This document shows, in pieces, positions 13,381-20,377 of a DNA stretch of 20,377 nt (within the stretch, counting starts at the first letter, position 1; each line of letters begins with the position of its first letter). Source of the stretch: a virus; IMG/VR virus record IMGVR_UViG_3300042516_000108, positions 1 to 20,377 of that record; one strand, written 5' to 3'. Position numbers and translations under genes: made by a program. The notes below the pieces were generated by a model, which was given only the letters and a program-made list of their open reading frames with translations, ran no database searches and had not been told where the DNA came from.

Positions 13381-14604
13381 TTAGGCAGTAACAACATACT
13401 CTGCGGTCATACCAGCTAGGGTGCGGAGTTCAGAACGCGCATCGCCTGAAGCGTTTGCAAGACCGCTGATTACCACTGCAAGTTCTGGACGGAGTACGCC
13501 AGTACCCTTGAACATGCTAGCAACGGTAAAGGTAGTGTTACGACGAACATCATCAACAGTGTCTACCTTTAGACCCTGTAGGCTGAGTGAAGCAACACAA
13601 TCCTTCTGGAAGATAAGAGCCTTAATCTTTGTAGCAACACCATCAATGTTGTAGCGAGCTTCGCCAATATTAGCACTTGCAGATGCATCATAATCAACAA
13701 CTGGTAGGTGGTTGCTCTTGATAATCATGCAGCCCTGATACTCTAGAGCATCAGAGACATTGTGCATACCCATAGCAAGAGGAGCACCAAGGCCACCAGC
13801 CTCAGCAACGCCACCAAACATTGGACGAGCAGGACCGTTACCAGTGCCTGAAGTCATTACGCCGTAGAGTTCGTTGTATGAACGAGCTACGCCAAGAGCA
13901 CGAATGTCTTGGAATGCGCGTGGAGTTACAACGCAGTAAACACCTTCGGTTGGTGCGTTGATTTCCTGTAGGTGAACCATGAAGTTTTCAATTGCTTGAA
14001 GAACCTTAAGAGCAGCTGTAGTTCTATCAGCAGCTGTAGCGGTAGAAAGACCAAAGTTATCAAATGCTGCATCAGTGAATAGATCCTGATCTGGAACAGT
14101 AAGGCCAGTTCTTGGATCGTTTGCTAGCAAATCTTCCATACCAGCACGGGCGATATAGGCAGCAATCTGCTTATCACGAGTGTTGGCTAGAGTTAGACCA
14201 GCCTGACGAGCTAGCTCAGCGCGGAATTCCCACTGAGTTAGAAGCTGGTCAACATTGTCAATTTCAAAGTGAGCGGCCATTGGGCGCTTGTCGAGCTTAA
14301 TGGCGAATGTCTTTGAAGTAGCTGTGCCACCAGAAAGTTCTTCACCAGCGTTCCAAGCAGCCTTAAGGTTAATTGTACCAGTGACTGGGAATTCGGCAGT
14401 AGTGCCGCTGGCAATAGTCTTCTGAGTGACTAAGCCTTCAAACATGTTGTAGTGATCGTATGCGTGAATAACTTCTCCGCTCCAAATTGGAAGCCAGAGT
14501 TTGTTAGTACCAGCCGCACCGCCTGAAGTACCGTCAGCAACTGCTGTACGGTACACCATGTCAGTTGCGCCTAAATTATTATTTCCTACTGGGTCTAAAG
14601 CCAT
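13381..14604 (-). CDS. Major capsid protein, T7 gp10A-like (HK97 fold)
   Basis: Main shell subunit of the icosahedral head. Length 407 aa, longer than T7 10A (345) and in the range I expect for marine T7-like phages. Recognisable blocks: LWLPIWSGEVIHAYDHYNMF (36-55) in the N-terminal arm, the FPVTGTINLKAAW region with GEELSGG leading into the E-loop, KRPMAAHFEIDNVDQLLTQW (106-125) at the start of the long spine-helix region, and the P-domain helix RTTAALKVLQAIENFMVHLQ. GVYCVVTPRAFQDIRAL is typical of the A-domain. ATG preceded by AAGGAG with 8-nt spacing. It has its own upstream structured region and a terminator after it, consistent with high, separate expression. No frameshift extension is visible after the TAA. 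Confidence 0.96.
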   Translation of the reverse strand: MALDPVGNNNLGATDMVYRTAVADGTSGGAAGTNKLWLPIWSGEVIHAYDHYNMFEGLVTQKTIASGTTAEFPVTGTINLKAAWNAGEELSGGTATSKTFAIKLDKRPMAAHFEIDNVDQLLTQWEFRAELARQAGLTLANTRDKQIAAYIARAGMEDLLANDPRTGLTVPDQDLFTDAAFDNFGLSTATAADRTTAALKVLQAIENFMVHLQEINAPTEGVYCVVTPRAFQDIRALGVARSYNELYGVMTSGTGNGPARPMFGGVAEAGGLGAPLAMGMHNVSDALEYQGCMIIKSNHLPVVDYDASASANIGEARYNIDGVATKIKALIFQKDCVASLSLQGLKVDTVDDVRRNTTFTVASMFKGTGVLRPELAVVISGLANASGDARSELRTLAGMTAEYVVTA

Positions 14605-14763: not shown

Positions 14764-15720
14764 TCAGAAGGGAAGACTTCGGAAGTCAGTCTTAGCCATA
14801 CGAGATTCAACAGCAGAACGGAACTTAGGGTCCGTGGTAAAACGGCTGTTGTTTCTGTCAGCATAGAACTCTCTCTTAGTCTTATAACCAGCCGTACCCT
14901 GTTGGGTACTGCCGACAGGAACTTGCTTACCCTTAGTTGGTTCCTTTGTTTTAACTGCGCCGCCAGTAGCCTTCTCATATTTGGAAGCTAAACCCATAAG
15001 AGCTACATCCCACGCTGGGGTAGCAAGAGCCGCATTAAGGCTTTTGATTTCATTTGGGTTCATAGTCTGGCTAGCCCAGCCAAAGAGTTCGGCAAGTCTT
15101 TCACGACCACCGATGATGTCAGCAGCTTTTCCGAAAGCTAGTTGAAGCTTGGCTTTCTGACCTTGCATGTATTCTTGAATTGCAAAGTCGGGAAGCTTTG
15201 TCTTTTGACGAATCTCATTCATAATCTCTTCATTAAGATCGCCCTTTACGGACAACTCGACTGACCACTTGTCCCAATCTTCCTTGGTAACAGTAGGAAC
15301 TTCAGCAGCCTTAGTCTCTACAGGAGCTTCTGGCTTATTTGGAATACGCAGTTCCTCTTTTACTGCTGCCTTAGGTTTCTCTGGCACAGCCTTTTCAGCG
15401 GGTTGTTTATAATTAGGGTTATCAGTAGTATCGCCAAACTTCTTTTTAAGTTCAGCAATCTCCTGACGAGACTGAGTGTACGCTTTCTGAGCGTTTCTTA
15501 AACTGTCAAACCAGCTACCAATATCCTTAAAGTTTTCCGGTACATTAATACCGTTAGTCTGAACATAGGTTTCAAATGCTTTCCGTTCTTTTGCTGCATT
15601 AACTTCATCAGGTGATGCAACAAGAGATTGTTCTGTCTGTTGAATCTCAGAGTCCACAGGGTTAACCTCTGGAGTGTTCTGATATTCAAACTCTGGAGTC
15701 TCTTGTCCGTTGTCGTTCAT
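14764..15720 (-). CDS. Capsid assembly (scaffolding) protein, T7 gp9 family
   Basis: Transient internal scaffold that guides procapsid assembly and leaves before or during DNA packaging. Length 318 aa (T7 gp9 is about 307). Composition is typical: acidic, Gln/Glu-rich N-terminus (1-45), helical middle (45-95), Pro/Lys/Glu-rich linker (about 105-145), then a helical region with IQEYMQGQKAKLQLAFGKAA (181-200), GGRERLAELFGWAS (204-217) and the conserved scaffold feature NPNEIKSLNAALATPAWDVAL (221-241), followed by a basic C-terminus that would contact the capsid protein. Position immediately before the capsid gene supports the call. Start ATG has only a distant AAAGG, about 12 nt away, so translation may partly depend on coupling with the gene upstream. 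Confidence 0.93.
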   Translation of the reverse strand: MNDNGQETPEFEYQNTPEVNPVDSEIQQTEQSLVASPDEVNAAKERKAFETYVQTNGINVPENFKDIGSWFDSLRNAQKAYTQSRQEIAELKKKFGDTTDNPNYKQPAEKAVPEKPKAAVKEELRIPNKPEAPVETKAAEVPTVTKEDWDKWSVELSVKGDLNEEIMNEIRQKTKLPDFAIQEYMQGQKAKLQLAFGKAADIIGGRERLAELFGWASQTMNPNEIKSLNAALATPAWDVALMGLASKYEKATGGAVKTKEPTKGKQVPVGSTQQGTAGYKTKREFYADRNNSRFTTDPKFRSAVESRMAKTDFRSLPF

Positions 15721-15725
15721 AATTG

Positions 15726-15839
15726 TTACTTGCCTTTCTTAGTGGTTTTTGTTGTAGCCTTAGGGCATGCCTTTGGCTGTGCGTCCTTACCAGTTAATCT
15801 GGTAGTAGTTCCGCAGTTGCATTTAAATTTTGATTTCAT
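15726..15839 (-). CDS. Tiny Cys/Lys-rich protein (37 aa)
   Basis: Starts MKSKFKCNCGTTTRLTGKDA and ends KATTKTTKKGK. Contains a C-x-C-G knuckle and one later cysteine, so a half zinc-ribbon is conceivable. A longer frame opens at 15914, but its first 25 residues lie wholly within the preceding gene and look like shadow sequence; the ATG at 15839 forms a 4-nt ATGA overlap with the preceding stop and is preferred. Function unknown. Last of the basic Cys-containing cluster; the scaffold gene starts 5 nt after its stop. Confidence 0.72.
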   Translation of the reverse strand: MKSKFKCNCGTTTRLTGKDAQPKACPKATTKTTKKGK

Positions 15840-16066
15840 TCCCAAGATACTCTCTTTCCTGACTTCTTGGCGCGTACACCCTTGGATGTACACATGGCCT
15901 TGGTAGGACGGCAAGCAGGGTAAGAACCCTTACCAGCCTTCTTACGGCCACAAGGACCGCCTGTCTTACAGTTAACCCAGCCCTTGCCATTGTTGCGGGA
16001 AAACCAGCCATGAAGACCCTTTTCTTTTTCAAGGGAAAAGTCAGCTTTCTTTTTCTTTTTAGCCAT
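15836..16066 (-). CDS. Small Lys/Cys-rich protein, GLHGWFSRNNGKGW type (76 aa)
   Basis: Function unknown. After a lysine run (MAKKKKKADFSLEKEK) comes GLHGWFSRNNGKGWVNCKTG, then GPCGRKKAGKGSYPACRPTK and AMCTSKGVRAKKSGKRVSWE. The order G-L-H-G-W-F-x-R-N-x-G-K-G-W-x-x-C-K, P-C-G-R, Y-P-A-C-R-P-T, C is a pattern I know from small conserved phage proteins (DUF level; number not certain). Four cysteines could coordinate a zinc ion. ATG start overlaps the preceding stop (TAATG), with AAAGGA 8 nt upstream; its TGA overlaps the following ATG (ATGA). It is third of four consecutive basic, cysteine-containing proteins. Confidence 0.85.
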   Translation of the reverse strand: MAKKKKKADFSLEKEKGLHGWFSRNNGKGWVNCKTGGPCGRKKAGKGSYPACRPTKAMCTSKGVRAKKSGKRVSWE

Positions 16067-16206
16067 TACTTTTTTCCTTTCTTCTTTTTACCCCAGTTAG
16101 CAGCACCTACTTTGCGGCACTTAACTAGGGAACCAGAAGCATAGGCTGAAGGCCACTTTTTATAAGAAGCCTTTACCTTGTTATAGCAAGCGTCTTTCTT
16201 AGCCAT
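16066..16206 (-). CDS. Very small Lys-rich protein, SAYASG-LVKCRKVGAANW type (46 aa)
   Basis: Translating from the ATG at 16206 gives MAKKDACYNKVKASYKKWPS, then AYASGSLVKCRKVGAANWGK and a poly-lysine end. I recognise the K-V-K-x-x-Y-K-x-W-P-S-A-Y-A-S-G-x-L-V-K-C-R-K-V-G-A-x-N-W-G pattern as a recurring small conserved protein of marine phages and some large DNA viruses (a DUF family, possibly DUF5872; not verified). Function unknown. Two cysteines, net charge strongly positive. Start overlaps the upstream stop (TAATG), so translation is probably coupled; its own stop overlaps the following ATG in the same way. The conserved pattern makes it a real gene despite its length. Confidence 0.85.
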   Translation of the reverse strand: MAKKDACYNKVKASYKKWPSAYASGSLVKCRKVGAANWGKKKKGKK

Positions 16207-16502
16207 TATTTCTTACACTTTCTATTCTTAGGACATGAAGCCTTTGAACCCTTGGGGCCAGCCCAAAGATCCTTACAAGCCCAGTGTTTAGCTGATAGCT
16301 TGTTAGTTGCGGAGTCACAACCATGCCGTGCTCGGAAAGACTTCCTTGCTGCGGGTGAGTAGTTATGACCATATCCAGTCGCGCCATAGTGGATAATCTT
16401 TTCTTTGCCATTGGCACAAGCTTTGACTACCCGCTTCTTACCAGCCTTGGGTGATTTCTGTGGACGATTACACGCCATCTTAGACTTATCCAATCGCTTC
16501 AC
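16206..16502 (-). CDS. Small basic Cys-rich phage protein (98 aa)
   Basis: Function unknown. Rich in Lys/Arg with six cysteines spread along the chain (CNRPQ, ACANG, GCDSA, WACKD, SCPKN, KCKK). The central stretch IIHYGATGYGHNYSPAARKSFRARHGC recalls a pattern I know from small phage and giant-virus proteins (I-H-[FY]-G-x-x-G-Y, then K-x-[FY]-x-x-R-H), a family assignment not checked here. Start choice: the frame opens with a GTG at 16511, but that codon lies within the AGGAGGT itself; the GTG at 16502 sits 7 nt after AGGAGGT and is preferred. An ATG at 16478 (MACNRPQ) is the other option, with weaker support. It overlaps the portal end by 17 nt and its stop overlaps the next start as TAATG. 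Cysteine spacing would suit metal binding or disulfides. Confidence 0.85.
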   Translation of the reverse strand: MKRLDKSKMACNRPQKSPKAGKKRVVKACANGKEKIIHYGATGYGHNYSPAARKSFRARHGCDSATNKLSAKHWACKDLWAGPKGSKASCPKNRKCKK

Positions 16503-18114
16503 TTGGGCCACCTCCTAGTAGTTGTGCGGGATTAATACCAGCCTGTTGCATTAAGGCTTGGATATTTTGTCCACCAGTTTGTTGTAGATCCTGAGTAGCA
16601 GCTTGCTGAGCCACAGCACCAGCAGTATTAACAACGGCATTACCTGCCTGTGCCTGCATTTGCTGTTGCATCTGCATTTGCTGCATCTGTTGCTGTTGCA
16701 TCATAATATCTTCCTCGCTCTTTACCCAGTTACGGGGATCAAAGCCTAAGGATGAAATTAAAGCTCGGGCATACTCGTCCCACTTAAAGGCTAAGTATGC
16801 TTGCTCAGGAAGATTCCGAACCATTTCTCCCATTTGCATTAAACGCTGTAGATCGGTATCTCTTGACAAGGCTTGCAATCCAGTAATAACCTGAGTTGTA
16901 AGCATGCCATTCTTATCAAAGAACTGGCTGTATAAACGCTTGTCAATATCCTTACTCTCTAACATAAGGAACACAGCTCGTTTTACAATTGGCTCAATTA
17001 GATCACGGGCAATGCTAGAGAAAGCACCACCTAGAACGGTTTCCAATTCGGAACCGATCATTCTAACTGCTGTAGCTGTTACACGATCCCCACTAGGAAT
17101 GGCTGAAGATGTCATAAGGAATGACTGGGAAATTTCCCTACGCATTGTTTCAACCGCAGCTTGGCATGCACTAATCTGTGCATTCATTGTTTGGGATGGA
17201 GATAGAACAGAGAAGTCACCGCCTCTCGCAGCAATGAATGAACCATTGGGCGCATCAGCGATATCGTCTATCTCAGTAATTCCTGTTGGGTCGATTGCTA
17301 GCCAGAATGTGGACGAGGCTGCTAGACCTTCGATCAAAGCTTTAGTATATGACTCAAGAGTTTGTAGGTCACCTAGGATATCTTCACAGTGCGATCTACC
17401 GTAGTTTTCCCCGGCAATACCATACCACCTTAAGACACCCATTGGAAGTACGGTGTATTCACCCTCTTCCAATAGATCACCTTCTTGAGTTTCTTTACGG
17501 ACATACCATACATCATCGGTTTTTAAATACCGACAATATATAGTTTGATATCCAGCTTTCTTTTCAATACCATACTCACTACCATATAGATGCTCAGTTG
17601 CATCTGGGTCAATAAGATGGTATTCAAGATTAATTATTTCTACTACATTACCTTCTACATCTCGCTGAACAACAAACTGATCTAGTCGTTGAATACGGAA
17701 TGTAAAATTGTCTTCCATAATAAAGAGAACATCTCCAACAATTACAGCATGCTGTAGTGCTTGATAGATTGTTTCTCTTAGATTAGTTCCATTTAGTTTA
17801 TTAAATACCTGATAAGAAAGAGTTTCTAAATAACTTTCTATTTCAGGAGTAGCTTCTACGCCAGACTTAAGGGCAAATCTAAAGAATGGAGTATCGTTCA
17901 GCGGAAGCAGGGCGCTTAATATGCGACTGCTCATGGCTGTGACACCCTTTGCTGCAACAGACGAATATGGCTGTGGCAAAGTCTGCTCTTCGTTCCAACC
18001 CTCAGGAGGTAGTACTGAAGGTACAGTAAGTCCGGCGCAGACTCTTGAGCGGTTTAGTTTAGCTTGTCTACCACTGTGTAGAATTCTAAACCTATCAGCA
18101 ATTGTCTGTTCCAT
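16486..18114 (-). CDS. Portal (head-tail connector) protein, T7 gp8 family
   Basis: Forms the dodecameric ring at one capsid vertex through which DNA is packaged and ejected, and to which the tail tubular proteins attach. Length 542 aa against 536 in T7. Family features: N-terminal HSGRQAKLNRSR (13-24), the LPPEGWNEEQTLPQPYSSVAAKGV block (35-58), GENYGRSHCEDILGDL (235-250) and GDRVTATAVRMIGSELE (342-358). The C-terminal part (471-488) is a Met/Gln-only tract followed by an Ala/Gln-rich tail, longer and less complex than the core. ATG preceded by AAGGAG, 6-nt spacing. It is followed by an overlapping small basic gene rather than directly by the scaffold gene as in T7. Confidence 0.96.
   Translation of the reverse strand: MEQTIADRFRILHSGRQAKLNRSRVCAGLTVPSVLPPEGWNEEQTLPQPYSSVAAKGVTAMSSRILSALLPLNDTPFFRFALKSGVEATPEIESYLETLSYQVFNKLNGTNLRETIYQALQHAVIVGDVLFIMEDNFTFRIQRLDQFVVQRDVEGNVVEIINLEYHLIDPDATEHLYGSEYGIEKKAGYQTIYCRYLKTDDVWYVRKETQEGDLLEEGEYTVLPMGVLRWYGIAGENYGRSHCEDILGDLQTLESYTKALIEGLAASSTFWLAIDPTGITEIDDIADAPNGSFIAARGGDFSVLSPSQTMNAQISACQAAVETMRREISQSFLMTSSAIPSGDRVTATAVRMIGSELETVLGGAFSSIARDLIEPIVKRAVFLMLESKDIDKRLYSQFFDKNGMLTTQVITGLQALSRDTDLQRLMQMGEMVRNLPEQAYLAFKWDEYARALISSLGFDPRNWVKSEEDIMMQQQQMQQMQMQQQMQAQAGNAVVNTAGAVAQQAATQDLQQTGGQNIQALMQQAGINPAQLLGGGPSEAIG
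16651..16704 (-). repeat. Low-complexity Met/Gln codon tract within portal gene
   Basis: Eighteen codons encode residues 471-488 of the portal, nearly all ATG, CAA or CAG with a single alanine near the end. On the plus strand this appears as interspersed TGCTGT, TGCATC and TGCATT units. It resembles a trinucleotide-type tract that can change length by slippage in steps of one codon without breaking the frame. It lies in the flexible C-terminal tail, after the conserved portal core. Confidence 0.75.
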
Positions 18115-18819: not shown

Positions 18820-20377
18820 TTAGACTAGTTCACAACCATTGGCAGTACATGCCATTGTGTGTGAAGACTTAGTTGTATCTTCTTTCTCATAATCTGACAG
18901 TTTATTAAAGTCAACATCTGGCTTGGGATGCATGTTGTATGTTCTTGCATCAATCTCTTCAAAGGGAGCTTGAGCGTAAACATGGTCTGACTTGGGCAGG
19001 AAAGAGATACCTGAAATTGAATCAAAGTTATCCCATACCCATTGACCTACTCCAATAAACTCATCGTCAGTATAATTGACAGTGATACTTGGTTTGTGAT
19101 TGCAGTAATGATCCTGATAGGCTTTCCATAGTTTAAGATGCTCAATAGCCGTCAGTTCTTTCTGGGTGATTGAACCTTGTGGGGCTTTCTGAGCAAAGGT
19201 AAACACGGCAGTACTAGCTGGATTCATTACGCAATCTTCTACTGGAATACCGCTATCGGCCATCATGTTATACAGTGGGTCTTTCTTATCAATGCGGACT
19301 CTACGATAATAGAATTCAGCATAGCGTGGGTGTAACCCACTGGATGCATCAGCTAGGCAGGAGGTTGTACCTTCTGGCTTAATGCATGTGATAGACTTAC
19401 TTGGGGTAATACCAAGCTTATCAGCCCACTTAAGGTTAGTGATAGTAGCAATGTCTCGGAGTTTTTCCAAGGCATACGCTAGCTTGGCATAACCTTCTTG
19501 GCCGCTAGTTAGTTTGTTATCAAAGATACCAGTCATGGATACGCCAAGTAGACGCTCTTCTTCAGAGTTCTTTCTGAATTCGTCATTCAGATAAGGGAAC
19601 TTGGTGAACATGCTCTGGATTGTTCCAATGATGGTAGCCTGTTCAATCTTTCTAGCCAGTGTTTCCACAGTATCTGTAGCCTTAACAACGATTGTTGATA
19701 GGTTGCAGAACTCGTTTGGCTTTAGAATGATCTCTGAGCAGGGGTTAGTACCGTAGTTGGACCAAGCTCTACCACTTTTGGCAGCAATTAGATTCATTGC
19801 TTCGCGGTTGCAAATACCACGCTCACCTGAATGTGAGTTATACAATGAAGTCCATTCTTCCAAGAACTGGCCTAGGGGTGGCTTGCAGTTGTAGATGGCA
19901 GAGTTATTAGCCAAGGCACGATGGCCTGCTGTTTCCCACCAAGCACCACTCTTGCAAGTAGCCATCTCTCTGTCCGATAGATCGCTGAGTGAGATCATTG
20001 CTGAGCGGCGCACACCACCAACAATAACAGACTGAGCAATCTTGCAGCAGATATCGTGGCACTCCAACGGAGTTAGTCTACGGCCTTGGGCCTTGTAGAA
20101 CACGCCTACGATAAACCGCATCACTTCCTCCAGCGGAGCAGGACCGCTTGCACGGCCTCCAAAGGTCTTTAGACGGCTTCCTGAAGGACGGACTAGGCTA
20201 GTGTCCCACTTGGGGTGCAAGCCGTCATATAGGCTGGACATCAGATGCTTGAGGGCATCGCACCAACCTTCACGGGAATCCTCAACAACAAACACGGTGT
20301 TGAAATCTTTTACAATATTCTTTGGAACAGCTGGTAGCTGCTCTACACAGCGGCGTTCCACAGAATAGCCTACGCCT
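18820..20377 (-). CDS. nrdJ: Adenosylcobalamin-dependent (class II, monomeric) ribonucleoside-triphosphate reductase, 5'-truncated
   Basis: Reduces ribonucleotides to deoxyribonucleotides for phage DNA synthesis, using a B12-generated thiyl radical. The reading frame is open to the right edge: GVGYSVERRC lies at the edge, so a start codon at 20361 (GTG) is only an internal valine. Counting that valine as residue 1, the active-site motif NPCSEI is at 206-211 and FCNLS at 218-222. N206, C208, E210 and C219 correspond to N406, C408, E410 and C419 of the Lactobacillus leichmannii enzyme, so about 200 N-terminal residues are missing, including the first cysteine of the redox pair. The C-terminus ends CTANGCELV: two cysteines five apart, matching the swinging-arm pair that re-reduces the active site in the monomeric RTPR type. 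VGGVRRSA is at 114-121. Stop TAA; the next gene begins 10 nt on. Such genes are common in marine podoviruses. The family is very secure; the preference for triphosphates is inferred from family. Confidence 0.96.
   Translation of the reverse strand, partial: GVGYSVERRCVEQLPAVPKNIVKDFNTVFVVEDSREGWCDALKHLMSSLYDGLHPKWDTSLVRPSGSRLKTFGGRASGPAPLEEVMRFIVGVFYKAQGRRLTPLECHDICCKIAQSVIVGGVRRSAMISLSDLSDREMATCKSGAWWETAGHRALANNSAIYNCKPPLGQFLEEWTSLYNSHSGERGICNREAMNLIAAKSGRAWSNYGTNPCSEIILKPNEFCNLSTIVVKATDTVETLARKIEQATIIGTIQSMFTKFPYLNDEFRKNSEEERLLGVSMTGIFDNKLTSGQEGYAKLAYALEKLRDIATITNLKWADKLGITPSKSITCIKPEGTTSCLADASSGLHPRYAEFYYRRVRIDKKDPLYNMMADSGIPVEDCVMNPASTAVFTFAQKAPQGSITQKELTAIEHLKLWKAYQDHYCNHKPSITVNYTDDEFIGVGQWVWDNFDSISGISFLPKSDHVYAQAPFEEIDARTYNMHPKPDVDFNKLSDYEKEDTTKSSHTMACTANGCELV

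Follow-up and report, generated by a model that had tools for sequence, protein, structure and literature searches.

The question raised by this locus is what four small genes contribute when they lie between the portal and scaffold genes of a T7-like phage, an interval in which T7 is not known to have genes. The window, ie the whole stretch of DNA analysed here, is the 20,377-base virus record IMGVR_UViG_3300042516_000108, positions 1 to 20,377. Read along the minus strand it carries a ribonucleotide reductase-like gene, two small genes, the portal gene (16486..18114), genes A, B, C and D, the scaffold gene (14764..15720), the major capsid protein gene (13381..14604) and a tail gene. We take the gene at 18820-20361 to be a ribonucleotide reductase; it is two small genes upstream of the portal, and it recurs in that position in related loci. 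The flanks proposed in the original prediction are the correct ones, the portal (head-tail adaptor) matching phrog_449 and the scaffold or head assembly protein matching phrog_1052 and phrog_1018; the major capsid protein matches phrog_267. The portal, scaffold and capsid profiles of P-SCSP2, an Autographiviridae record, were compared with those of the window itself, and the group is called T7-like because the two sets match equal numbers of ORFs (92, 92 and 86).

The four predicted ORFs, all on the minus strand, were confirmed. Gene A (16206..16502, 98 aa, GTG start at 16502) encodes a basic module, gene B (16066..16206, 46 aa) the 'PSAYASG' module, which is part of DUF5872-like and phrog_727 proteins, gene C (15836..16066, 76 aa) the 'GLHGWF...PCGR...YPACRPT' module, also part of DUF5872-like proteins, and gene D (15726..15839, 37 aa) the 'KCNCGTTTRLTGKDA' protein. 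The ribosome-binding site of gene A, AGGAGG as read from the sequence (16511..16516, minus strand), lies within the 3' end of the portal gene with a spacer of 8 nt to the GTG, and the portal gene and gene A overlap by 17 nt. The junctions are TAATG for A/B and for B/C, and ATGA for C/D, as had been predicted, and 5 nt separate the end of gene D from the scaffold ATG. The proteins range from 4.0 to 10.8 kDa and are all basic, again as foreseen (pI 10.4, 10.3, 10.4 and 10.2 for A, B, C and D). The description of each as having several cysteines suits A, C and D, which contain 6, 4 and 3, respectively, but is generous for B, which contains 2. Comparison with relatives (at least 60% identity and 80% coverage, identical proteins counted once) gave pN/pS values of 0.24 for A (88 pairs), 0.26 for B (52), 0.25 for C (64) and 0.20 for D (18); for A-C, pS was close to saturation. 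Such low values argue against chance ORFs; A-D are real genes under purifying selection.

The order portal-A-B-C-D-scaffold was found in 28 of 40 distinct portal-scaffold intervals, the window's own included. The remaining intervals contained A D (5), A B C (2), A (2), B A C D (1), B C D (1) or none of the four (1). Since most loci had been found by searching with A or C, these two are to some extent bound to be present; this does not apply to B, to D or to the order. The overlapping stop and start of A/B is kept in 26 of 30 cases and the ATGA of C/D in 23 of 30, which upholds the predicted coupling at these junctions; the B/C overlap is less conserved, being present in about half (16/31). Among the loci gathered with the other queries, gene D was seen in 72 sequences (38 distinct ORFs, counting the window and its copy L001), and T7-like head genes are on the same stretch in all 72. 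The expectation that the four would be conserved as a group holds only in part: 28 intervals contain them all, but A, B and C also travel more widely, often away from head genes. In the T7-like cyanophage P-SCSP2 (L009:5579-6557) a C ORF was located by tblastn between the scaffold and major capsid protein genes, and B-like and DUF6321-like small ORFs were seen by eye in the same interval, which looks like a shifted version of the A-D cassette.

The three motifs noted originally do recur in other phages, many of them marine. By tblastn against 50,697 phage records (E 0.01), A was found in 109, B in 366 and C in 12. An HMM census of 339 sequences (338 loci and the window, some contigs being present more than once) gave free ORFs of A (149), B (125), C (117) and C-like (24), together with the fused ORFs A-protease (81), portal-A-MuF (1), C-like-B-DUF6321 (47), B-C (9), C-like-B (7), C-like-B-A (4), B-DUF6321 (3) and B-A (1). 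By hhalign (probability 99.7) the profiles of C and C-like belong to a single family. In the long fusions the modules run from C-like through B to DUF6321 or A, opposite to the order in the window; the B-C fusions have B before C, as the window does. Phage CRP-902 carries B and C. Judged by these profiles, A, B and C are portable modules that are fused or separate in other phages.

Window A scores 11.3 bits (E 0.36) against DUF5754 (PF19058), or Tlr6F, below the Pfam gathering score of 27.4, and 42 of 50 A-family members give weak matches to it (E up to 1, best 3e-4). The likeness to DUF5754/Tlr6F lies in these weak matches and perhaps in the match of the A model to a Tunisvirus protein, described below; the difference is that window A is under the cut-off. 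The Tlr6F family is reported from polinton-like and giant viruses (PMC4642659). For DUF5872 (PF19197, cut-off 27.5 bits) B and C score 18.9 and 18.0, both below it singly, and cover profile positions 6-48 and 38-88, respectively, while a fused B-C relative, L077, passes with 30.5 bits; the window differs in encoding the two parts as separate genes. A and DUF6321 exchange in the same C-terminal place of the fusions, and homology between them is not claimed because hhalign gave a probability of 16% over 12 columns only. A weak match to DUF6321 (E 0.036) was seen for the A-type protein of Vibrio phage D274.

Module A occurs as a domain of head proteins. At least 599 IMG/VR relatives were found with the query from Roseobacter phage CRP-6, and in all 80 loci kept A is N-terminal to an XkdF-type protease (Peptidase_S78_2) on one ORF. 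A profile grown from CRP-6's A recovers window A. Both CRP-6 gp55 (65.2 bits) and Aeromonas phage 4L372XY gp107 (73.6 bits) pass the Pfam Peptidase_S78_2 cut-off of 24 bits. CRP-6 gp55 is upstream of gp54 and of the annotated capsid protein; gp54 is coiled and scaffold-like, with a weak match to a head maturation protease family over the rear part of that family. In 58 of the 80 loci a gp54 homologue is no more than about 300 nt downstream, and a CRP-6 capsid homologue is on the stretch in 63, many of the contigs being short. The 4L372XY gene is upstream of an annotated decoration gene. Module A is therefore the N-terminal domain of the XkdF protease in CRP-6-type phages; a profile search of window A-D found no protease domain. 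In Aphanizomenon phage CL131, A is part of a protein of 1,393 aa, flanked by a portal domain on one side and by InPase and MuF domains on the other. It has been proposed that such InPase domains are themselves packaged and perhaps injected (PMC5512222). CL131 thus has a multidomain form of the portal/MuF/InPase type of polyvalent protein. Polyvalent proteins join several disparate domains in one long chain, and the window proteins differ in being 37-98 aa. An extra N-terminal region matching part of a phage cytidyltransferase/DUF5824 protein was seen in 40 of the 81 A-protease ORFs (L200 and L203 among them).

The neighbourhood of A was compared in 13 named phage records. It is fused to head proteins in three (CL131, CRP-6 and 4L372XY) and free in the other 10, none of which has an annotated portal neighbour. 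In elemo free A comes directly after the GroEL gene on the other strand, and in ctfjg026 a few genes after GroEL/GroES. It adjoins an annotated peptidase gene in HTVC106P, and is one gene from the lysozyme gene in S-EIVl and two genes from the terminase small subunit gene in CRP-738. In pelagiphage HTVC008M (L175:2929-5120) it directly follows a cytidyltransferase + DUF5824 gene. In SIO1, D274 and P12053L it lies in a gap without annotation or closes a run of genes, and in GR7B it is among unnamed genes. These contexts are compatible with late expression and are by themselves no argument for a place in the head. As a separate observation on the HTVC008M neighbour, cytidyltransferases are reported in several cyanophage virions.

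The T4-like cyanophages carry the modules in a bead-like form. A P-SSM2 gp114-type protein contains C-like, B and DUF6321 in 271 aa, and its gene is between the tail sheath stabilizer gene and gp16. With this protein tblastn found 487 phage records at E 1e-5, in 269 of which a single place accounts for 80% or more of the query. Among the matches listed, related IMG/VR proteins are up to 1,076 aa long and appear to consist of many short modules with acidic linkers between them. Homologues of P-SSM2 gp3, gp16 or gp17 are on the same stretch for 59 of the 64 fused proteins that are 240 aa or longer. No title among the literature matches listed describes a cyanophage polyprotein. Two fused module proteins (L283 and one relative) begin MK(T/P)FSQF(F/I)(L/S)EA, a start which we take to resemble the T4 capsid-targeting peptide.

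The motif of the T4 prohead protease is L/I-x-E (PMC9026906). Its frequency within 20 aa upstream of each module was compared with that in random windows of the same proteins (500 draws), using the 31 of these 64 fused proteins that were left after a redundancy cut, 26 of them on stretches with P-SSM2 gp3/gp16/gp17 homologues; since the proteins are related, the counts are not independent events. The motif [LI]xE precedes B in 25 of 31 cases (random 6.1±2.0) and DUF6321 in 13 of 19 (random 3.0±1.6), values reached by none of the 500 draws in either case. Before A it was found in 3 of 4 (random 1.3±0.8, 33/500 draws). Before C-like there was no enrichment of [LI]xE (6/26, random 4.3±1.8), although the motif with a wider hydrophobic class was enriched there (17/26, random 10.3±2.5, 3/500 draws). 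Inside the module bodies [LI]xE is found in 0 of 31 B, 0 of 28 C-like and 4 of 19 DUF6321 modules, counts that carry no control for body length. Some control motifs were raised too, but far less than [LI]xE. Before B, [LI]xD was found in 2 of 31 (random 3.9), [LI]E in 10 (6.8, 60/500 draws) and [LI]xxE in 10 (5.7, 20/500); before DUF6321 the figures were 5 of 19 (2.2, 30/500), 7 (3.0, 11/500) and 3 (3.0), respectively. When the wider hydrophobic class was compared with shuffles, ΦxE preceded B in 30 of 31 cases (13.5±2.6) and DUF6321 in 18 of 19 (11.2±2.1); also raised before B were ΦxxE (21/31, 12.9±2.5) and ΦxD (12/31, 5.9±2.0), and over whole linkers the enrichment of ΦxD equals that of ΦxE.

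Published virion data bear on the fused forms. In CsCl-purified virions of S-CREM2, gp160 is reported from 7 unique peptides, covering 13.1% of it, and gp137 from 4, covering 4.1% (PMC10665884, Table 3). HMM searches place C-like at 140-199 and B at 255-293 of gp160, and DUF6321 at 409-490 of gp137; the positions of the peptides relative to the modules are not given, and gp160 is encoded outside the head cluster. The authors of that study point out that abundant proteins may co-purify with virions (PMC10665884). No module A was found in the 100 kb searched of the 174.9-kb S-CREM2 genome. The C-like-B-DUF6321 protein gp29 of S-SCSM1 is annotated 'virion protein' by its depositors, a label presumed to rest on peptides; 45 virion proteins of this phage are reported from mass spectrometry (PMC9602691). 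S-SZBM1 gp192 carries DUF6321 (50 kb of 177.8 kb searched), and it is absent from the part of the mass-spectrometry table covered for that phage (PMC9146016). For window A-D, or for any phage with module A, the literature searched gave no virion data. P-SS2 has a virion proteome in print (PMC2784084) and is uninformative on location because A-D are absent from the 90 kb searched of its 107.5 kb. A cryo-EM study of P-SCSP1u, in the parts available, reports no decoration (PMC10575957); this phage is not established as a carrier of the modules and so provides no test.

We put at about 0.5 the probability that A-D are small internal head proteins which are packed into the procapsid, associate with DNA and are probably ejected; this we infer for these four, and that the window's own A-D are virion-internal also stands at about one half. 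The virion role suggested originally is favoured by the proteins in which A is joined to portal-MuF or to the maturation protease, and by the B+C and DUF6321 proteins of S-CREM2 virions. Gene order, overlaps and selection suggest shared expression, in which A-D would probably be made from one putative polycistronic message in step with portal and scaffold. The two kinds of A fusion suggest that A-D would be taken into the procapsid during scaffold-directed assembly. They would then stay inside with the packaged DNA, their lysines offsetting its charge, as is suggested by the pI above 10 and by the precedent in T4 for lysine contact with packaged DNA (PMC3012670), and would probably leave with the DNA on ejection. 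In T4-like cyanophages C-like, B and DUF6321 (or A) would be made as one long protein and, from the placement of the L/I-x-E sites, the prohead protease probably cuts it after L/I-x-E into separate modules; the window phage would encode the modules as separate genes instead.

The internal proteins of T4 are basic, about 8-20 kDa in size, targeted to the head, cleaved after L/I-x-E and ejected (PMC9026906). IPI, IPII and IPIII, which are processed by gp21, resemble the window proteins in that these are small and basic, and resemble the cyanophage versions in the L/I-x-E sites before B and DUF6321 and in the reported virion detection. Unlike them, window A-D have, by inspection, no L/I-x-E targeting peptide in the first 20 residues. 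A further difference is that the T4 proteins are described as separate proteins, whereas the modules recur in several phage groups and fusions.

Part of the same evidence would suit assembly cofactors that bind scaffold, portal or nascent capsid, with A targeting the protease, and that depart or are broken down before the virion is complete. The cassette is placed between portal and scaffold and A is fused N-terminally to the maturation protease, as this explanation would have it, but the B+C protein and the DUF6321 protein are reported in CsCl-purified S-CREM2 virions, and in CL131 the neighbours of A are the portal and a domain for which injection has been proposed. We consider it rather unlikely. 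The chance that A-D are late cytoplasmic proteins of host takeover, anti-defence or lysis timing, encoded in the late operon and unpackaged, seems to us slimmer. The proximity of free A to GroEL or GroEL/GroES (elemo, ctfjg026) and to peptidase or lysozyme genes (HTVC106P, S-EIVl) would agree with such a role, as would the occurrence of the weakly similar Tlr6F in polinton-like viruses and giant viruses, which have capsids unlike those of tailed phages. The portal-MuF and maturation-protease proteins that include A speak against it, as does the detection of the B+C protein in virions.

Decoration or cement proteins on the exterior of the shell might be expected as small genes in a head cluster, which is where A-D are found. 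Maturation proteases and MuF domains, however, act inside the procapsid, and a pI above 10 suits contact with DNA, so an exterior position is very improbable.

Two strands and two helices make up the model of A, which was built from an alignment of 50 rows and has a mean pLDDT of 81.7. Among solved structures the best Foldseek/PDB match had an E of 1.1 and VIA-align placed 0 of 281 chains at Z of 2 or more, and sequence searches of solved structures with A, B and C gave nothing credible; a solved structure of A would therefore be informative. In BFVD the A model matched 11 proteins at E up to 0.001 (Foldseek, 3Di + amino acids, a score that uses sequence as well as structure), including a 1,393-aa protein (the length of that of CL131), Vibrio phage ICP1 ORF125 and an XkdF protein. 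The recurrence in large DNA viruses noted originally is supported, for A, by the match of its model to Tunisvirus V9SE36 (95 aa; E 6.9e-3, prob 1.00, TM 0.59/0.61), a candidate DUF5754/Tlr6F member. The model of the L077 B-C fusion is of low confidence overall (pLDDT 66, pTM 0.31) and C is poorly predicted, while B is confidently modelled as a helical hairpin with one cysteine in each helix (blocks 41-60 at 92-93).

The HxC and WxC cysteines of A were counted by pattern matching in 236 domains, redundant sequences included. Both are present in 225, both absent in 10 and one alone is present in 1, a linkage that fits a disulfide or a shared metal; from the sequences the two may be a disulfide or metal pair. 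The first core cysteine of A (KAC) varies independently and is missing in all 81 protease fusions. Zinc binding was considered as a theme common to the modules and rejected, because the A pair is absent in 10 of 236 domains and the B-like proteins of C72C1 and CRP-2, assigned by motif and not by profile, are without the two B cysteines; C of C72C1 has two of the four cysteines, which also counts against it.

A wider reading, which we offer tentatively and think possible rather than probable, is that the phages infecting aquatic bacteria draw on a common kit of interchangeable modules for the inside of the head. Of these phages, the T4-like cyanophages would make the modules as a polyprotein cut into beads by the prohead protease, others would carry one bead on a protease or portal-MuF, and the T7-like group of the window would have separate coupled genes; an A-type fold would also occur in giant and perhaps polinton-like viruses. 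Internal head proteins are best known from T4, in which IPI protects the infecting DNA from restriction (PMC9026906). A kit common to T7-like, T4-like and other phages would suggest widespread co-packaging of small basic proteins, and would supply working hypotheses for DUF5754/Tlr6F, DUF5872, DUF6321, phrog_727 and phrog_7595. Were the kit to include the giant-virus A fold, Tlr6F/DUF5754 would be a virion-internal, DNA-associated factor. One protein of 590 aa (L142:6516-8288) holds C-like, B and a window-like A together, and in it an intein-like insertion of about 250 aa, judged by eye, splits B just before the conserved SAYA motif.
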